Origin: Capillidium heterosporum
Taxonomy: Eukaryota > Entomophthoromycota > Entomophthoromycetes > Entomophthorales > Capillidiaceae
Direction: 5' to 3'
NCBI GenBank assembly: GCA_016630905.1
Contig: WBMQ01000007.1
Coordinates: forward strand, 1 to 64,000
DNA length: 64,000 bases
The translations under genes and the position numbers were made by a program. Below the pieces are notes generated by a model, which saw only the letters and a list, made by a program, of their open reading frames with translations, was not told the DNA's origin and ran no database searches. This document shows, piece after piece, positions 11,080 through 47,000 of the stretch; the first letter of the stretch is position 1; each line of letters begins with the position of its first letter.

Positions 11080-13550
11080 ATGAGTCCCCTACTGAAGCTT
11101 GTCCAAAGAAGTTCCAAGCTAACTAAAATATCTTTACAGCAGCCGACTGGATACGTAAGCATTCTTTACATAGCATGTTTTTATAACTGCATTCATATTT
11201 AGTCAAGTCGAAACGCATCCTACTTGAACAAACTAAACAATGCATCGAATGTGCAGCTTAGAGGACTAAGTAAGTTTATTTTACAGTATAGATTTCTTAG
11301 TAGAATGTTGTACCTCCTAGGCATTTCCTCCAACTTAATAAAGAATATTAGATCGAAAAACTTGATCGATTCCAAATGTAATGCTCTATTGGCCTCGACT
11401 TCAAAAAATCCATTTAGATTCCTCCTCAACACCAACTTTTCAATTTCAAAGCACTATTCTACCAACCTCAAAGAAAATAGTGCATATATGAACACTGGTA
11501 GCTTTTATATCAAGTTCAAAGGTTTTTGGGGAGCTGCAGCTGTCTCAGCAGTAGTATTAGTTTCACTGATAACTGGAAACGCCATCTATTGTGAAGCCAA
11601 GCCTATAGCTGCTGTACCCAGTAGCACAATAGATAAAGTTTTAAAAGATAGAAAAGTAGCCATTGAAGCCAAAGGAAGCCCTGATTCCGACCAACCCCCA
11701 GCCTCTAAAGTAAAATTAGAAATAATATACGAGATAGTCTGCTCCCACTGGAAGATAACATTTATTACGGTTGCTAGCGCGATAGCTTCCACCTTAGTGG
11801 GCCTCAAAATTCCAATAGCCCTGGGATCTTTAGTTACAGTAATAAGTAGGTCGTTTGGCGGCGACCTTACTGGGTTGACAGTTGCCAACGAAATTATTAG
11901 CTCACTCAAGGCACCAGCTTTCGAAATTTTGATGCTGTTTGTAGCTCAGGCCGCGCTAATATCAACACACATAGGTTTAGTCACGCAACTGGGTGAGGAA
12001 CTGGGAAAGGACTTTAGAACCCGTCTATATGCGGCACTTTTGGCAACTGATCTGGCCCACTTTGACTCTTCAAGGTCGGGGGAAGTCATTGAAAAACTAT
12101 CCACCGATGTTGCTGACTTCAAGCACACCTTCAAGCAATGTATAACTCAGGTACAGTTTCTATAAATCTACTGTAACTCATTCCATCTTAGGGTGTACGT
12201 TGTATTACCGCCTTAGTTGGAACTGGGTTCCAACTCTACTCCATCTCACCGTTATTAACCGGCTATATGCTGATTTTGGTACCCGGTTTCTACCTAGGAC
12301 TTTACGGGTACGGACAGATCCTCAGAGCTTACCGCAACAAGGCTAGGAACCTAGAGTCGTCTGCGGCTGGTCTAGCACAGGAAATCATCTCGAACATCCG
12401 CACGGTTCGCGCTTTTGCAACGGAGGCAATCGAACTGGCCAGGTATGACAAGATTCTCAGCCAAGTGAGTTGGGCCAATTTGAGCTTTGGGTTCCACATG
12501 GGGGTCTTTAGAGGATTAATGACAGTCTCGGTAGGGTCCATCATTTTGCTAGTCCTCTATTTTGGCGGTGGGTTAGTTTTAGAGTCCAAGTTGGAACCGG
12601 GGAAGCTGATGACGTATTTGATCGCTTCACAGAACGCCCAGAAGTCTTTGGACAGCTTGGGGGCGCTTTTCGGTCAAGCTATTCGAGCTTTTGGATCTGG
12701 CAATAGACTCATCGAATTTTTGGCCACGCCACCGACTACGACGCTGAAACCATTGCAAGGGTTTGGTATAGTCCTTCACGATCTAAAGGGTGAGGTTGTA
12801 TTCAAAGACGTATGTTTCTCGTACAGTGAAGACAGAAAAAACACCGTAATCAACAATTTCAATTTGAGGATCCCTTCGGGGACATCAGCGGCACTATGCG
12901 GTGCTTCTGGCTCAGGCAAATCGACAATTGCCGCCCTTTTGGAACGATTCTACGAAATTAAAGATGGGTGTGGAGTCATTCTAATCGACGGCGTACCGTT
13001 GCACCAACTGGATCCCTACTGGCTACGCAAGGAGGTCATAGGCTACCTAAGCCAGGAGCCTACTTTGTTTGTCGGCACGATAGCCGAAAACATATGCTAC
13101 GGATCCAAGTACACTCCTAAAGATAGGCACAAAATTGAAGCAGCTGCCCAAGCTGCCAACGCTCACCTCTTTATCAATTCGTTTGCCCAAGGTTATGATA
13201 CTTTGGTAGGTGAGCGTGGAGTCTCGTTATCAGGCGGTCAAAAGCAGAGAATTGCCATTGCAAGAGCTATACTCAAGGACCCCAAGATTTTGATTCTTGA
13301 CGAAGCAACGTCAGCCTTAGACTCTAGGTCGGAAGCCAAGGTCCAACAAGCCCTCAGCAATTTGATGCAAGGGCGTACAACTCTAATAATCGCCCACCGC
13401 CTCTCCACCATCAAACACGCTGACAATATCGTCGTTATGGGTCCGGTTACCAGCAGTAATTCTAGTAACATTTTGGAGATGGGTACTCACGACGATTTAT
13501 TAGCTAAAAAGGGGGCCTACAACAGCTTGTTCAACAACTTTTCCATTTGA
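11080..13550 (+). CDS. Mitochondrial ABC half-transporter, ABCB8-like
   Basis: Three exons (11080-11154, 11203-12150, 12192-13550) give about 793 residues. The first 100 residues are basic, Ser-rich and lack acids, as in a mitochondrial presequence. A TMD follows with LAHFDSSRSGEVIEKLSTDVADFKHTFKQ, spliced exactly to GVRCITALVG. This pattern (FD..R.GE...L..DV..FK..FK...QG.R) recalls human ABCB8 (MITOSUR) more than ATM1. The NBD has Walker A GASGSGKST (about 578-586), Q-loop SQEP, signature LSGGQ (about 687-691), Walker B ILILDEATSALD and switch His IAHRLST, so ATPase activity should be intact. Likely an inner-membrane homodimer; the substrate is unknown. The ATG at 11080 is chosen because its 25-codon exon splices in frame. 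Confidence 0.92.
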
Positions 13551-17863: not shown

Positions 17864-19576
17864 CTAGTAAGTGGTAGCTGACCTTTGATGGTTGGCTTTC
17901 ATCCTCATGCTTAGTCCCGGCTCTACGCCCATACTATCGACTAGTTTCAAAGCACGCAAGCTTTTATGGTACTCCATTTCGATCAAACTCCACTGTTTAG
18001 CCAACCGTTTCGCTCTAAAGATGGCAGACATGACGATGACACATCTTCTCAATCGAACAATAGGTCTGTTATTTGGGTTGGCATCAAGGCTCAAAGAGGA
18101 ATATTGAGGTATAGGTGATTCGGGCGACTTGAGGCTAAAACTGGTGACCAACTGCAAAGTTGAATTCTCAATCTCCTTCAATGACTCAATGCGCATGTCG
18201 AGGTACTGCTTCTGGAAGGCCAAGTCGGCTCTAAAGTTGCCTTCCCGCATCAACTTCATCTTCAAATACCGCAACTTGAACTTCAAGTTGAAGCAGATCT
18301 CCTTGTACGGCTTTGTGTAGGTGAAGAGGTTAGCACCATGGCTGCTACCTTCTTCGTTTATATCAGAGCGTGAGGAGGCAATGGAAGGTTGATAAGAGTG
18401 CGTACTCGATCTACGGAATTGGGAGTAGGTGCTGGAGGGTGAGGAAGGTACCGATATCGAAGTCATGTTGCTGAGATTTAAGCTGGGTGTGTTGTGGTAG
18501 GTGAAGGAGTCATTGCGTGACCTGGAGTGGAATTTACGATTGCTGCTGTTTGTGGGAGTGACCTGGCTAGATGAAATAGGCAACATATGCTCCGAACTGT
18601 TGTCCTGGGGGTCAAAAGTAACTTGGTGATTCCGCATACACTCCAATTTGAACTTTCTAAGCAACTCTTCCTGTAGCTTCAACTCCATCCTACAGCTTGA
18701 ATGCTCCTTACGTTCCAACTCCAGTTGGGTCAAAGTTTGGCTGAGTTTATCGCTATGGTAAGCTAGCTCTTCTTTTAGACTCTGACATTCTTCCTTTAGA
18801 TAGTGGTTGGTATTGTTAGTGAGGTCGAGGTCATAAAACAGAGCTTCTTTCTCCTGGTTGAATTTTTGAGTGAGTTGGCCTATCAAGTAAATTTCTTTGG
18901 GGTCGTTTTTACTAAGGTCAAAGTCGTCCATTTGGGAGTTATTGGCCAAGTGGGGCTGCAGTTTAGACAGCTCTACTTTCAAGCTGCCATTCTCGATCTT
19001 CAATTTGGTGTGCTCCAACTTCAACTCCTCAACTGCATTTAGCTTACCTTCACTCAAACTTCCTTCCGAATTTTCATCAGCATCAGCCTTCAACTTCTTG
19101 AAATTTGTAATCAACCCGTTAATTTCCTGCAAAGCCTTAGTCAGCTCCTCTTTAGTCTCAACCAACTTCGATCGTAAAGCTTCATTCTCCGTCTTGAGTT
19201 TGTAGTTCAACTTTTCCACCTCCATCAGTTGTGAATCTTTCGTATCGTTCATCAGCGATCCAAAAAGCCCATCGTATTTGGATATGCCATCGAAACTTTC
19301 ATTTAGTAATGAGTTAACTTGATTATTGAAGGATCCTGGCTCGGAGGGTTCGTAGTCCAAATTGGAGACTGAAGTATTCGATGAGAAGTTGGTCTTGTAG
19401 TACCTGCTGTCCTTACTCAATAGGTCCAAAGAAATGCTCATATGTTGAACCAATTCCTCCAACTCTTTGATCCTATACCTAGCTTCCTCCAATTTATTAT
19501 CTTCATTGTTTCCTGTAGTTGAACAATGGGAGTGGCGTCGGGTTGAAGGCGGTGCCGAGGCAGTCATGTGGTCCAT
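17864..19576 (-). CDS. Coiled-coil protein with a PACT-like C-terminus (spindle-pole/centrosomal candidate)
   Basis: A single-exon 570-residue protein. A short basic, Ser-rich head is followed by strong coiled coil (about 30-60 and 115-315; KLEEARYRIKELEELVQH, ELKLEHTKLKIENGSLKVEL). Residues 320-410 are a Ser/Thr-rich linker. The C-terminal part reads LKFKLRYLKMKLMREGNFR, ADLAFQKQYLDMRIESLKE, then LRRCVIVMSAIFRAKRLAKQW. That resembles the PACT domain of fungal Pcp1/PcpA pericentrin-like proteins (YL..K..RE..FR..L.FQKKYLL, then a basic-hydrophobic helix ending AR.W). PACT domains dock coiled-coil scaffolds and calmodulin at microtubule-organising centres. It is shorter than typical pericentrins. 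Coiled coil is certain; PACT assignment is by eye. Confidence 0.7.
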   Translation of the reverse strand: MDHMTASAPPSTRRHSHCSTTGNNEDNKLEEARYRIKELEELVQHMSISLDLLSKDSRYYKTNFSSNTSVSNLDYEPSEPGSFNNQVNSLLNESFDGISKYDGLFGSLMNDTKDSQLMEVEKLNYKLKTENEALRSKLVETKEELTKALQEINGLITNFKKLKADADENSEGSLSEGKLNAVEELKLEHTKLKIENGSLKVELSKLQPHLANNSQMDDFDLSKNDPKEIYLIGQLTQKFNQEKEALFYDLDLTNNTNHYLKEECQSLKEELAYHSDKLSQTLTQLELERKEHSSCRMELKLQEELLRKFKLECMRNHQVTFDPQDNSSEHMLPISSSQVTPTNSSNRKFHSRSRNDSFTYHNTPSLNLSNMTSISVPSSPSSTYSQFRRSSTHSYQPSIASSRSDINEEGSSHGANLFTYTKPYKEICFNLKFKLRYLKMKLMREGNFRADLAFQKQYLDMRIESLKEIENSTLQLVTSFSLKSPESPIPQYSSLSLDANPNNRPIVRLRRCVIVMSAIFRAKRLAKQWSLIEMEYHKSLRALKLVDSMGVEPGLSMRMKANHQRSATTY

Positions 19577-19908: not shown

Positions 19909-21875
19909 TTAATTCTTCTCTTCAACTTCGACGTCCTCACCGACCTGTACGAACTCCTGGGAAGAAGATAGGGAGGGCTGGCTACTCTCAACTTCACTGG
20001 ATTCCTTAAGGGCATCGGCATAGGACAAGTGGGACTCATCTTCCTGTTTCTGGGCGAGTTCGGCTTGGGATTCAGCTTCAGCTTGGGAGGTTTCGACGGC
20101 AACTACCTTATTGTCCTGGACATCCAATTGGGCGTCGGCAGTTTCCTCATTACCAACGACGGGGAAGTCGCGGTTCAAAGTTTCAACTTCAGCCTCAGTT
20201 GTCGATGTAGGTTTGGCTTCAGCCTCAATGACATCAGCCTCCTCTTCAACAGCTTTCTTCAAAATTTCGGCAAAGGATTTCTTGGGTTCCTCAGAATCCT
20301 GCAGGAGGGGGGCGGGGGCATCCTTGAAGTGGGCGATCTTGAGGACATCTCCCTTCTTGATGGCCTTCTTGGCGACTAAAGTCATAACGTGGTTGTGCTG
20401 CATGAACTCAGCGGTCACGTTGTCATCCTCATCATCGTGAACGAGGTAAGAAGAGAAGATGAACAATCCGTTGGCGGTACTGGGTTCGGAGTTAACCTTA
20501 CGGACCGACTCCTTGGAGTGCTTGCTGGGAACAGTGGTGGTGGTATCCTTCAGCGTCGAGAAGGCGAAGCAACCCTTGATGATCTTGGCCTTCATGCTCT
20601 TGTAGTATTCAATATCGACAACCTGCTCGATACCGGGGGTAATAGTACCCAGGTACTTTTGCAAGTTGTAGGTCTCGTTATTGAGTCGGGCTGCTGGGGT
20701 GGTGAGCTCATCGGGGAAGAAGCGCTCGATGTGTTGCATGTGGGTGTACTTGGGAGCGGGTGTACCGGAGGTCAAGGTAGCTTCGTGCTCGCGGAAGACA
20801 CGGAACAGGACCTTGGCCAACAAAGAGGGAACCTTTTCATTGGTGGAGTAGGTTTCGGTTAAGATCTTGACGGGGCTGAGGTCGGAGTCCTTGAGCTCAG
20901 GATACTGGATCTTGGATTTATCGTGGCACTCGGTGGAGCAGTAGACTGACTTTAGGTAGTTGAAGCTGGACTTGATTTGCTCCTCACCGTCGAGAATCTG
21001 CTTCATACAGAAACTACAGAAACCATTACCCTACTTATTGGTAAATAAACAAACTAAAAAATAATCGCCGTACCTCTAAGCTGGGTTCCAATACAGAGGA
21101 GATGGGAGTTTCGGTATAAATCTTTTCCAAAGGCTGGAAATCCTTGGCAGCGACTAGGTAGTGCTTTTTGATGGGGTTGGCGGGGTCAGCAGTCTGGTTG
21201 GGGACAACCTCGAACTGAACGTTCATCTCAGCAGGTGGGTATTCGGTGTAGTACTGCTGGAAGGCCTCCTGCTGGGCTTTAAGCTATACCTCAGTTAATC
21301 AAAAGTACAACAATACAAATACCTCAATGGAGAATAAACCAATGACAAGTTCGTAGCAAGGATGAGGAAGCATCTTCTCGGTCAATAGTACAAGCTCTAC
21401 TGGGTTGGGGCAGGCAAGGACAGCCTTAAAAATGTGACTAGCAGCCTCATCAAAGAACTTGGGTCCTATTTTGATACATGAATAAAACGCTAGTTTAAAG
21501 CTATTTACCTTTTTGGGCTAGAGCTTCACCTTCAGTCAAATGACGGAAGAGGTAGGCTTCACGCTCAGCGGGAGTATCGGGAGCGACATCCTTCTTGGCA
21601 TCGTTGTACATGGTGGCAAGTTTGGTGGCAGCCTCATTTACCAACTCCTGCTTTCTCTTCTCGTTAGCTACCTTGCTCTCTTCTTCAACCTCCTTCTTAG
21701 TTTTCTCTTCATGTAAAGTTAGTTTCACTTACAAAATAAAAATTCAAGTACTTATGCTTTTACGGAACTTTTTGTCGTTTCTACGTTTGTAGTCAAAGTA
21801 GACGGCGTAGCCAATACCGGTAATAGCAGTCAAGCAGACAGCCGATATGATGATGTTCTTGGTGGTAAGCTCCAT
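19909..21875 (-). CDS. Tom20-SET/MYND fusion protein (mitochondrial import receptor domain plus degenerate SET)
   Basis: About 600 residues from five or six exons. The start at 21875 gives MELTTKNIIISAVCLTAITG then IGYAVYFDYKRRNDKKFRK, the Tom20 N-terminal anchor and YFDYKRR motif. The next exon (21501-21728) has FRHLTEGEALAQKG, spliced to FFDEAASHIFKAVLACPNPVE and LPHPCYELVIGL, matching the Tom20 receptor helices. The frame then continues into EMNVQFEVVPNQT, HYLVAAKDFQPLEKIYTETP (SET N-part), FCSFC...VYCSTECHD (MYND-like) and GLFIFSSYLVHDDEDDN...LVAKKAIKKGDVLKIAHF (SET C-part). The canonical NHSCxPN is replaced by VHDDEDDN, so methyltransferase activity is doubtful. An acidic tail of about 110 residues follows. 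All joins keep frame; the junction after KFRK has alternative acceptors. Confidence 0.8.
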
Positions 21876-36261: not shown

Positions 36262-37494
36262 ATGAAATCAAAAGCTTTAATCTTTATTTTTGGGCTACTG
36301 CTATCCTTGGTAATATCGGCCTGTACAGCTCCAAGGATGCGTAAGGAGATCAGGGAGTTAACTGACAACGAGTACAACCGTTATATAAACGCATCCCTTG
36401 CCTTGAAAAAGCGGGGCTCGAGTGCGACTTTAAGCATCTGGGAGATTTTCACCAAGCTACATTATGATGGAGCTCAGACCGATCATGTAATCCACGGGAC
36501 ACCAGCCTTTCTACCTTGGCATCGCAAGTTCATCAAGATGTACGAGTTGGAGTTACAAAAGATCGATCCATCAGTTAACCTACCTTACTGGGACTGGTCC
36601 CAGGACGCCGACTATCCTCACCTTAGCCCAGTCCTCACTCCACTTTACATGGGTGGCAACGGGAACCACATTCAAGACAAGATCTTGGATAATGGTCCCT
36701 TCAACTTTACTCAACTTATCTACTACGACAAGCACCCTTTACGTAGAGATTATGACCGTGGGGATACTATAAGTCCATTCGCATCGACTACTGACATCAA
36801 TGCCATCCTAGCTAATGACGAGTACTCCAAGTTCTGCAACCAACTGGAAGGTGTTCATGGCTCCCCTCACACCTTTATCGGTAATTGGGAGGATTTTGGT
36901 ATGTTCACTTCCCCCAACGATCCTCTCTTCTACCTACATCATGCCTACGTCGACTTGGTATGGGCCAAGTGGCAGGACCAAAACCCAACTGCCAACCAGT
37001 ACGAGGGAAGTGATTACAATATGAATGTCGAATCTACCGACAAGCTGTACGGGTACAGCGATACTGTCAGTTCGACTTTCAGCTATAAAACTGGTACCTA
37101 CTGCTACAGCTATCCTACCTATCCTAGGAAACTCACTCCAGTACGATCTAACCATCTAGTCGCTAGGGATCTATATAAAAGCAAGCTTATCGATGATGTA
37201 ACTTTGAACTCCATCATAAAGGGTTTGACTATGGACAAAGCTATTGCCAAGCTGGATAAGTTGAACAAGTTGTTTACTTCAGTTTTAGATAAACCAAGTG
37301 CAATAGTAAACTCGACTTTAGGAAACAGTTTGGCGGATTTGAGTATGCCAGAACGTACCCCATTACCTGATAGATGGATTGAGAAGAACAACCTGGATAA
37401 GACTAAGATTCGTGGCTTTGAGGCCCAACAGATTAAAATTCGTCAGCTCTTCCAGAAGTTGCACCCGATGAAGGATAAACTTTCAAAGTATTGA
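36262..37494 (+). CDS. Secreted tyrosinase (type-3 copper oxidase)
   Basis: A 410-residue single-exon protein with signal peptide MKSKALIFIFGLLLSLVISA. The copper-A site is H67, H78 and H87 (KLHYDG, VIHGTPAF, PWHRKF). Copper-B is H199 and H203 (VHGSPH) and H226/H227 (DPLFYLHHAYVD). The family PYWDWSQD motif lies between. The central domain ends near 300 (YCYSYPTYPRKL), followed by a 100-residue hydrophilic tail with KLDKLNKLFTS repeats of charge. It should oxidise phenols and catechols to quinones outside the cell, for melanin or cross-linking. All copper ligands are present. A broken paralogue lies 1.4 kb downstream. Confidence 0.93.
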   Translation: MKSKALIFIFGLLLSLVISACTAPRMRKEIRELTDNEYNRYINASLALKKRGSSATLSIWEIFTKLHYDGAQTDHVIHGTPAFLPWHRKFIKMYELELQKIDPSVNLPYWDWSQDADYPHLSPVLTPLYMGGNGNHIQDKILDNGPFNFTQLIYYDKHPLRRDYDRGDTISPFASTTDINAILANDEYSKFCNQLEGVHGSPHTFIGNWEDFGMFTSPNDPLFYLHHAYVDLVWAKWQDQNPTANQYEGSDYNMNVESTDKLYGYSDTVSSTFSYKTGTYCYSYPTYPRKLTPVRSNHLVARDLYKSKLIDDVTLNSIIKGLTMDKAIAKLDKLNKLFTSVLDKPSAIVNSTLGNSLADLSMPERTPLPDRWIEKNNLDKTKIRGFEAQQIKIRQLFQKLHPMKDKLSKY

Positions 37495-44034: not shown

Positions 44035-47000
44035 TCAAAACCGTTTGAAGAACTCAATGACCCTACCTACTCCCTCCTCATCCAATTTATCTCCATCTAC
44101 AACACAATAATTGACCAAAAGGGCCGAAGTCTTGACCTTGGCAACCTCGACAAACTCGACTTCCACTTCGACATCTCCTCTACCCCCTTCATTGGATCCA
44201 AACGCCGAATGGAAGGGTATACGAATCAAAAACTTGAACCCATCGTGCAACCAGTCGTAATCCAGATTCAAGTTGATCCACCGATCCAAGTAATTATCGG
44301 AGAACTCAGTTATCGATAGCTTTTCTGTCTTTACGAGGTTTTTACTGCGTAGGCATTCGTGGATAGTTATCTGGCGGATACCGGTATCTACTTCCTCCTT
44401 GGTACCGTTGTCAACTTCCTTAGCTTTGTTAGCAACTTTAGATTGGTATTTCTCCTCTTCACCACACCTGCTTCTACATTTATCAGTATCCACCTTGACG
44501 AAATTGACGATGGTGGTCTTGGTAGGTAGAACTCTAGTTTTTGCGTTGAAGTTGGTATCCAAGCTATCTATTTTGGAGTGCAACTTCTTACCCAAGTTGA
44601 AGTTGACTGCCTTGTCCTTGAAATCCACCAGTTTGTCGTCGGCTTGCTTGGTGGTGTAGTGATCATCCTCCATATCAGAGGAGGAGTTGGAAGTGTCGGA
44701 TTCTACCTTCAATTCCTTCAACTTGTTGAGTATAGCTTGGGCATTGGAGGGCTCTACGGTAGGCTCGGTAGTAGACATAGCATCTGAGCCGTTGGTTTCG
44801 ATACTGGTTTCTACTGGATCTAGGAAAGTAACCTTCTTCTTGGGCTTGACGGCTGGTAGTGGTCTCGACCCAGTTTCGCCGTTTACATGAACTGTGTTGG
44901 TGTTGTTGGTAGCTTTAGCTTTGTAGGAGGCAAGAAGTTGGTCCAGGTACTTTTTCTGGTTGGAGGTAGGAGGTGGTACCGCTTTGTCTCCGTTGACCTT
45001 ACCTTCCTTGGTGGTAGAATTACTGACTGGTGATAAAACTTTAGGGCTGATGGTTAAGAACGGGGAACGTATTTCAGGACTGACAACTACGTTCTTGTTA
45101 TTGATGTCACCTACTGCGCCCGGGTTTCCGTCACGAGATAGTTCGGAATTGGTATCGGTAAGATAATTCTTTAATCCTTTGAACAGTGAGTTCCGCTTAT
45201 CGTTTAAACTATCGGCACCTGATTCATTATCTTTATCCTTTGTAGCATAGCCATCCTCTTCTTTCTTCCTACCGTTTAAGCTACTACTACGCTGGATCAT
45301 GGGTTGGGGTATGTTAGTGGTCAGCTTGTTGGTACCGAAATGCTGCTTCAACTTGGTTCTTATTAAATCACGCCTGTTGTTGTAAGATTCGACGTTTTCC
45401 TTCTCCTCCTTATTATTGGAATCTTTGGGGTGACGTACAGTTAAAGTTCTACTCAGCCTAGGCACGTTACTCTTGCGCTTAACAGAGTTTCTTCGGACCA
45501 TGTTGGAGTTCCCATCTCCATCGGATGCGGTCTCGGGATCAGAGTCAGGTGTAGGTGAATCAGATCTACGAGCCGCCATGGCACTGGCCGGTCGTTCCAT
45601 CCTAGGGATCCGGGGCTCTTGACTAGTAGAACTGGAGCTGGTATCTGTGGTGTTGCTCTCATACAACGAAGCTCGCTTGGCCTTGTACAGTGCTTTACGA
45701 CGCTCGCTGTCAGTCGGATTATTGATAGCAAGGACGTCCATGTTCAACCGCTTGTAGGTTTCATACATGGATGCACGTTTGGCTTGGTAGGCCTGCTTGT
45801 CGATGGTACCTTCGTAATTGCTGTTGGTGGATCGATTGGACCTCGAACTGAAGTTGGAGTTGGATCGATCCATAGGCTCTCCTTTGACGGTTGCTTCGAC
45901 TTTTGGCTCGATTGCCGGCTCAACCCGTTTCTTTACCGTCATTCTGCGACTCAAGGGTCGTTTGGGTAATCCGGAATCCTCATCCGATGGATTGATATCA
46001 TCCTTGTTCCGTTCATGTAGGCTGGAATCAGCCCTACCATTTTCGGACTGCACCCTGTCCAAAGCCTCGTTACCTTTGATTTCTACCCCAGGATTAGTGT
46101 CTGTAGCATTACGTCGCATCGTCATGTCCCTTTCAGGTACTGGTGGCGTATTATTCTGAGCCAACGGTATCTTGCTGGAAAGTCTGGGTGTAACCCGATT
46201 GCTTGCAACTACTGGCTCTCCATCGGTCCTTATATTGGTGGCTACCTCTATCTTTTTAACCTTGTGATCGTTGACGCTGCGGGATTCATGGATGAGGTGG
46301 TACAGGGCTACTAGCGGCGAGTTATTGACCATTATCCCATCGGGTTGTGACTTTCCCATCCTAAGTTCAGTTTCCAACTGTTGGGTCACGCTGAGTTCAC
46401 TCTGGAACATGCAGGCCGTCAGCTCCCCAATGATGGCCTTGTCCAGTTGCTTGGGTAGTAGTCGTAACTTGGTAGGTTTGTAGATAGAATCCAACTTGTA
46501 CTTGGATAAAAGGGGTTCCTTGGCTACTTCAGGAAGACTTATCCTGCGCTGAGGGTTGGGATCCAGTAGCTTAGATACTAAAGGCTTGACAACTATATAT
46601 TAAAAGTTAATACGATTTGATGAGAGTTTTGATTGTACCTGATGGGAAATTTGGAGTCCACCTTATTTTGCCATTCATCACGCATTCCCAAGCACCTGGG
46701 TTGCGTGGATCGTCGAAAGGTAAGGTACCAGTTATCATGGCAAACAGCACGACACCTATGGACCAGACGTCGACTTCAGGTCCTAAATTAAAACTTTTAG
46801 TACTTGGTATAGGCACTTGTAGCTACCTATATAGGGATCTCCTCTCATAATCTCAGGTGCTGAGTACTGTAGACTGCCACAGAAGGTTTTCAAAGCATTC
46901 TTCTGGTCAAAGAAATTGGCTAGGCCAAAGTCAATGATCTTTACGTTATCTTCGTTGTCGATCATAATATTTTCCACCTTGATATCCCGATGGACTACGA

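Follow-up and report, generated by a model that had tools for sequence, protein, structure and literature searches.

A fungal Tom20 fused to a SMYD-derived SET–MYND part that is most likely not a working enzyme

Tom20 is short in Ascomycota and humans. The Tom20 chains in the translocase of the outer membrane (TOM) of Chaetomium thermophilum (PDB 9i7s) and in PDB 7vc9, which we take to be human, have 185 and 145 residues and lack any SET–MYND part. According to passages of PMC12305020, TOM structures so far come from Ascomycota and humans, and the receptor domain of Tom20 binds presequences beside Tom22 in the C. thermophilum structure. Here we describe a Tom20 of a different build, encoded at 21875–19909 on the minus strand of a 64,000-nucleotide stretch of DNA from Capillidium heterosporum (contig WBMQ01000007.1 of assembly GCA_016630905.1, positions 1 to 64,000; 'the window'). 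It shares the anchor region, the YFD.(K/R)RR motif and probably the receptor fold with the two solved chains, but unlike them continues into a part related to SMYD2 and SMYD3. The order of elements in this part, N-terminal SET half (SET-N), MYND, insert and C-terminal SET half (SET-C), and probably also the fold are those of SMYD2 and SMYD3, as judged on a Mortierella relative; residues 5–271 of the SMYD2 chain align, with no match to the SMYD C-terminal domain. The fusion differs from both enzymes in having lost catalytic and cofactor residues and in carrying Tom20 at its N-terminus. The same layout, MAS20 upstream of SET, is printed as 'Group 25' in a survey of fungal SET proteins (PMC9692433), which found none of its members in Ascomycota.

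The open reading frames and splice sites give a single gene model of five exons, with 598 codons and a stop, encoding from N- to C-terminus a Tom20 receptor, a split SET/MYND core of the SMYD family and an acidic tail. All four introns (45, 43, 39 and 43 bp) are of the GT–AG type, and their G+C content is 24–28% compared to 43–51% in the exons. A preliminary description of this DNA had proposed just such a spliced frame, and we recover it together with all of its motifs (YFDYKRRND, HLTEGEALAQKG, ACPNPVE, FCSFC and YCSTEC). The donor of intron 1 is ambiguous and leads to a product of 594 or 598 amino acids. We prefer the longer version because it fits the family better, scoring 279.7 bits on a profile of 37 relatives, whereas the shorter one scores 266.5. 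The other donor, at 21763, is 13 bits worse on this profile and is retained as an alternative. The features of the gene are as follows:

21752..21875, minus strand: exon 1, with the start codon, the presumed transmembrane anchor and the YFDYKRRND motif of Tom20 (ends at 21764 with the other donor)
21707..21751, minus strand: intron 1, 45 bp, preferred donor (21707–21763 with the other donor)
21509..21706, minus strand: exon 2, with the charged linker and the first of the Tom20 receptor helices
21466..21508, minus strand: intron 2, 43 bp
21323..21465, minus strand: exon 3, remainder of the Tom20 receptor domain (ACPNPVE); the MAS20 match stops at residue 149
21284..21322, minus strand: intron 3, 39 bp
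21074..21283, minus strand: exon 4, with the linker YYTEYPPAEMNV, conserved in the alignment with 37 relatives, and the N-terminal SET half; contains the fusion joint
21031..21073, minus strand: intron 4, 43 bp
19909..21030, minus strand: exon 5, with the reduced MYND finger, SET insert, C-terminal SET half, acidic tail and stop codon
20926..21018, minus strand: half MYND finger CxxC ... CxxxC (C230, C233, C256, C260), the other four ligands gone
20419..20442, minus strand: site of the NHSCxPN motif that binds S-adenosylmethionine (SAM), reading VHDDEDDN, with His and the last Asn retained
19909..20295, minus strand, including the stop codon: acidic tail of 128 residues, with 35 D+E versus 10 K+R and no post-SET CxCxxC

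The Tom20 half is readily recognized. MAS20 (PF02064) matches residues 15–149 with 98.6 bits (cut-off 27; 3.9e-28), compared to 91.7 bits for the 594-residue version, which answers the concern in the preliminary description that a profile search might find no MAS20. A YFD.KRR-type motif, YAVYFDYKRRND, follows the N-terminal anchor, the anchor itself having been judged by inspection alone. The best solved relative of this half is chain 9i7s_K (1.1e-10), the Tom20 of the C. thermophilum TOM holo complex. A search of the genome (29.5 Mb in 44 contigs) returned two MAS20 matches, both inside the fusion gene. Neither MAS20 nor the Mortierella fusion protein found a second, ordinary Tom20 in this genome, although divergent short exons could escape such searches. 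Since no other MAS20 locus was found, the fungus appears to have the fusion as its Tom20 rather than as an additional copy. Tom22 is encoded elsewhere in the genome, as are Porin_3 proteins, a family that we take to include Tom40 and VDAC.

Exon 4 holds the joint between the two halves, and 37 database proteins, drawn from four fungal groups, are joined in the same way. The linker residues F-P and V are found in all 37 of these relatives and correspond to Y-P and V in the window protein; MAS20 stands upstream of the SET–MYND part, and the proteins are colinear over their shared length. The preliminary description had allowed for two adjacent genes misread as one, the second starting near 21226 or 21006. 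ATG codons are indeed present at both positions, but the one at 21226 encodes the M of the linker YPPAEMNV inside a conserved block, the one at 21006 sits directly behind two Cys common to all 37 relatives, and conserved residues flank each of them. We consider the two-gene reading extremely improbable and rejected it: a single exon holds the joint, which all 37 relatives have in common. The evidence thus argues for one gene joining Tom20 to a SMYD-like SET/MYND part.

The 37 distinct relatives found in protein searches are a lower bound, because candidates were restricted to 0.55–1.75 times the query length and two of the searches scored only those sharing most words (7991 and 7992); the third scored 311. 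MAS20 is present in 37 of 37 and a precomputed SET domain in 34; of the other three, P0002 passes SET when rescanned, and P0015 and P0024 are gapped in SET-C. The relatives belong to Agaricomycetes, Mortierellomycota (Mortierella), Kickxellomycota (Coemansia, Smittium) and Chytridiomycota, the last through a protein record from Rhizophlyctis (P0037). Agaricomycetes is the class to which we assign 31 named relatives, one further row being counted with them. The entries P0013, P0034, P0035 and P0036, and also P0014, are the ones among the 37 whose listings name the fusion tom20. How widespread the fusion is, a question the preliminary description had left aside, is thereby partly answered, as to the groups in which it occurs; short Tom20s fall outside the length range of the searches, so that the counts give no fraction of fusions per group. 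In a tree of the SET half the window protein joins Mortierella, its branch being very long and flagged by the tool as unsure; this tree and that of the Tom20 half each hold 14 of the 38 sequences and several long branches, and 8 of 11 inner branches of the latter are open. With fungi so far apart sharing it, the fusion is old and probably has a role other than protein methylation.

The residues on which methylation would depend point in the same direction. In protein lysine methyltransferases, SAM contacts come from Asn and His of NHS/CxxPN and from residues within GxG; the catalytic residue is the final Tyr of ELxF/YDY (passages of PMC6054832). The SET profile gives the window protein 14.5 bits, under the Pfam cut-off of 22.4, and the domain is recognized via its relatives; the cut-off is passed by all seven that were scanned (P0001–P0003 and P0034–P0037). 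We counted residues in an alignment of the window protein and the 37 relatives (38 rows), in which P0015 and P0024 are gapped at NHSC. None of the 36 readable rows retains the SAM-binding Asn: T takes its place in 16, A in 11, V in 3, S in 3, M in 2 and Q in 1, the window protein being among those with V. The S, C and P of NHSCxPN are also gone from the window copy. Of the 37 rows readable at the column of the catalytic Tyr, 14 hold Y, 13 F and 9 W, and the window protein alone has H. The first Gly of GxG is missing in all 38 rows and the second retained in five, with the letters matching GxG taken to be those of SMYD sequences. Of the 38 rows, 34 have an intact post-SET CxCxxC, which the window copy lacks; it is gapped in P0024 and in Smittium (P0034, where the database protein ends early), and its third Cys is replaced in P0010. 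As a control, we read 11 of the 12 SET hits in the genome, leaving out the twelfth on contig C2: nine have NHSC, one NHDC and one RRSC. In Smittium mucronatum, P0034 reads QKSSEPN instead of NHSCxPN.

The zinc finger is reduced as well. C1, C2, C5 and C6 of the MYND finger remain in the window protein, four of the eight ligands of a complete finger are lost, and the zf-MYND profile finds no match in this protein. The remaining four would presumably pair as one of the finger's two zinc sites. The MYND cysteines of the basidiomycete rows and Smittium are reduced similarly, and inspection of the sequences shows a complete ligand set in Mortierella, Rhizophlyctis and Coemansia. S. mucronatum P0034 carries a long acidic, repetitive insertion within the finger; in Coemansia P0035 and P0036 an insertion, likewise acidic, occupies a similar position. 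Compared with the aligned relatives, the window copy has eroded further. Foldseek with the exon-5 model gave no match at E ≤ 0.001.

The preliminary description envisaged a methyltransferase-like fold on the mitochondrial surface, and a SET–MYND-bearing Tom20 is presumably located there. A working SMYD-type enzyme attached to Tom20, which would methylate precursors or TOM subunits, is a different matter. In favor of such activity are Mortierella P0001 and Rhizophlyctis P0037, which retain HSCxPN, Tyr at the catalytic column and the post-SET CxCxxC, P0001 also lying above the cut-offs for both zf-MYND and SET; but both lack the Asn of NHSC like every other readable row, and the window copy reads VHDDEDDN, has His in place of the catalytic Tyr and lacks the post-SET cysteines. 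With cofactor and catalytic positions lost in the window copy and partly lost in all rows examined, the SET–MYND part is most likely not a working enzyme; we regard activity as very unlikely, the least likely reading for the window copy and an unlikely one for the family. The main alternative to a docking module is that the SET–MYND part is a decaying passenger on a working Tom20, heading towards a short Tom20 like that of Ascomycota. The motifs lost in the window copy would fit such a relic, as would the end branch, which is very long for the SET half (7.24 changes per column, versus 3.66 for the Tom20 half, both flagged unsure), and the lack of Ascomycota members in the published survey (PMC9692433). 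We nevertheless find a relic unlikely, as the SET half is still open over 373 codons and retains four MYND cysteines.

Several observations weigh against a non-catalytic docking module. SET-C of the window protein is poorly predicted, in blocks with a predicted local distance difference test (pLDDT) score of 27–73, and could be a relic. Of 36 rows, 35 retain the His of NHSC, the window protein being one of them and Smittium, with K, the exception; 14 of 37 retain the Tyr, including those of Mortierella, Rhizophlyctis and Smittium; residual activity is therefore possible in some members. SAM contacts vary even among active enzymes, according to passages of PMC6054832, and one SET locus of the control, L011 (G000:C12:78385-78708), also lacks NH and reads RRSC. 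This locus is a second candidate for a non-catalytic SET protein in the genome, apart from the fusion.

On balance, we favor, with fair though not high confidence, an import receptor whose SMYD-derived module, non-catalytic and exposed to the cytosol, serves for docking. The computation shows that parts homologous to Tom20 and SMYD are fused, that this fusion is conserved and that residues are missing; membrane topology, loss of activity and a docking role we infer. The protein would be the presequence receptor of TOM in this fungus: its N-terminal helix would anchor it in the outer membrane and its helical domain would bind presequences, both as in other Tom20s. The C-terminal MYND–SET core, without SMYD's own C-terminal domain, would stand in the cytosol at the TOM entrance. 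With one zinc site's ligands and presumably some of the fold retained, but cofactor and catalytic residues lost, the module would not methylate; it may instead act as a platform to which, for example, incoming precursors, chaperones or Tom22/Tom70 bind.

As a single sentence of PMC9692433 prints the layout, the architecture is not new; it is known but barely noticed. That paper treats the members as SET-domain genes, its main text does not use the word Tom20, and its covered sections do not mention missing catalytic residues of the fusion. Full-text literature searches, judged on titles and the starts of abstracts, pointed to no further paper on the fusion; in passages of PMC12699882, Tom20 and SET occur in separate places. 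The missing active-site residues thus appear unreported in the literature searched. Added here are the apparent status of the fusion as sole Tom20 of this genome, its presence in a chytrid protein record and the loss of the SAM-binding Asn from all 36 readable rows.

Other genes were noted in the window. Directly downstream on the same strand, 17864–19576 (minus) encodes a coiled-coil protein of 570 residues, in which a PACT (pericentrin-AKAP450) domain for centrosomal targeting scores 56.1 bits. An ABC half-transporter at 11224–13550 (plus) extends over two open frames, one for a membrane part and one for membrane and ATPase parts, which are probably one gene with an intron near 12165–12267. 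A tyrosinase-like protein (PF00264, 120.7 bits) is encoded at 36262–37494 (plus), and an 819-residue open frame at 44035–46494 (minus) has no Pfam match at 1e-5.

It is conceivable, at odds slightly short of even, that the Tom20 of the fungal ancestor already had a SMYD-derived module from which the SAM-binding Asn was gone. Yeasts and Neurospora, whose short Tom20 underlies textbook accounts of import, would then have the trimmed form, and many other fungi would import proteins via a TOM receptor with an unstudied pseudo-methyltransferase platform. If the Tom20 of chytrids, Kickxellomycota, Mortierella and mushrooms bears a conserved SMYD-derived module, part of the entry gate for import has gone unstudied. 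Genes that surveys of fungal SET domains list, and that are commonly taken for histone methyltransferases, would, if this is true, be import receptors instead.
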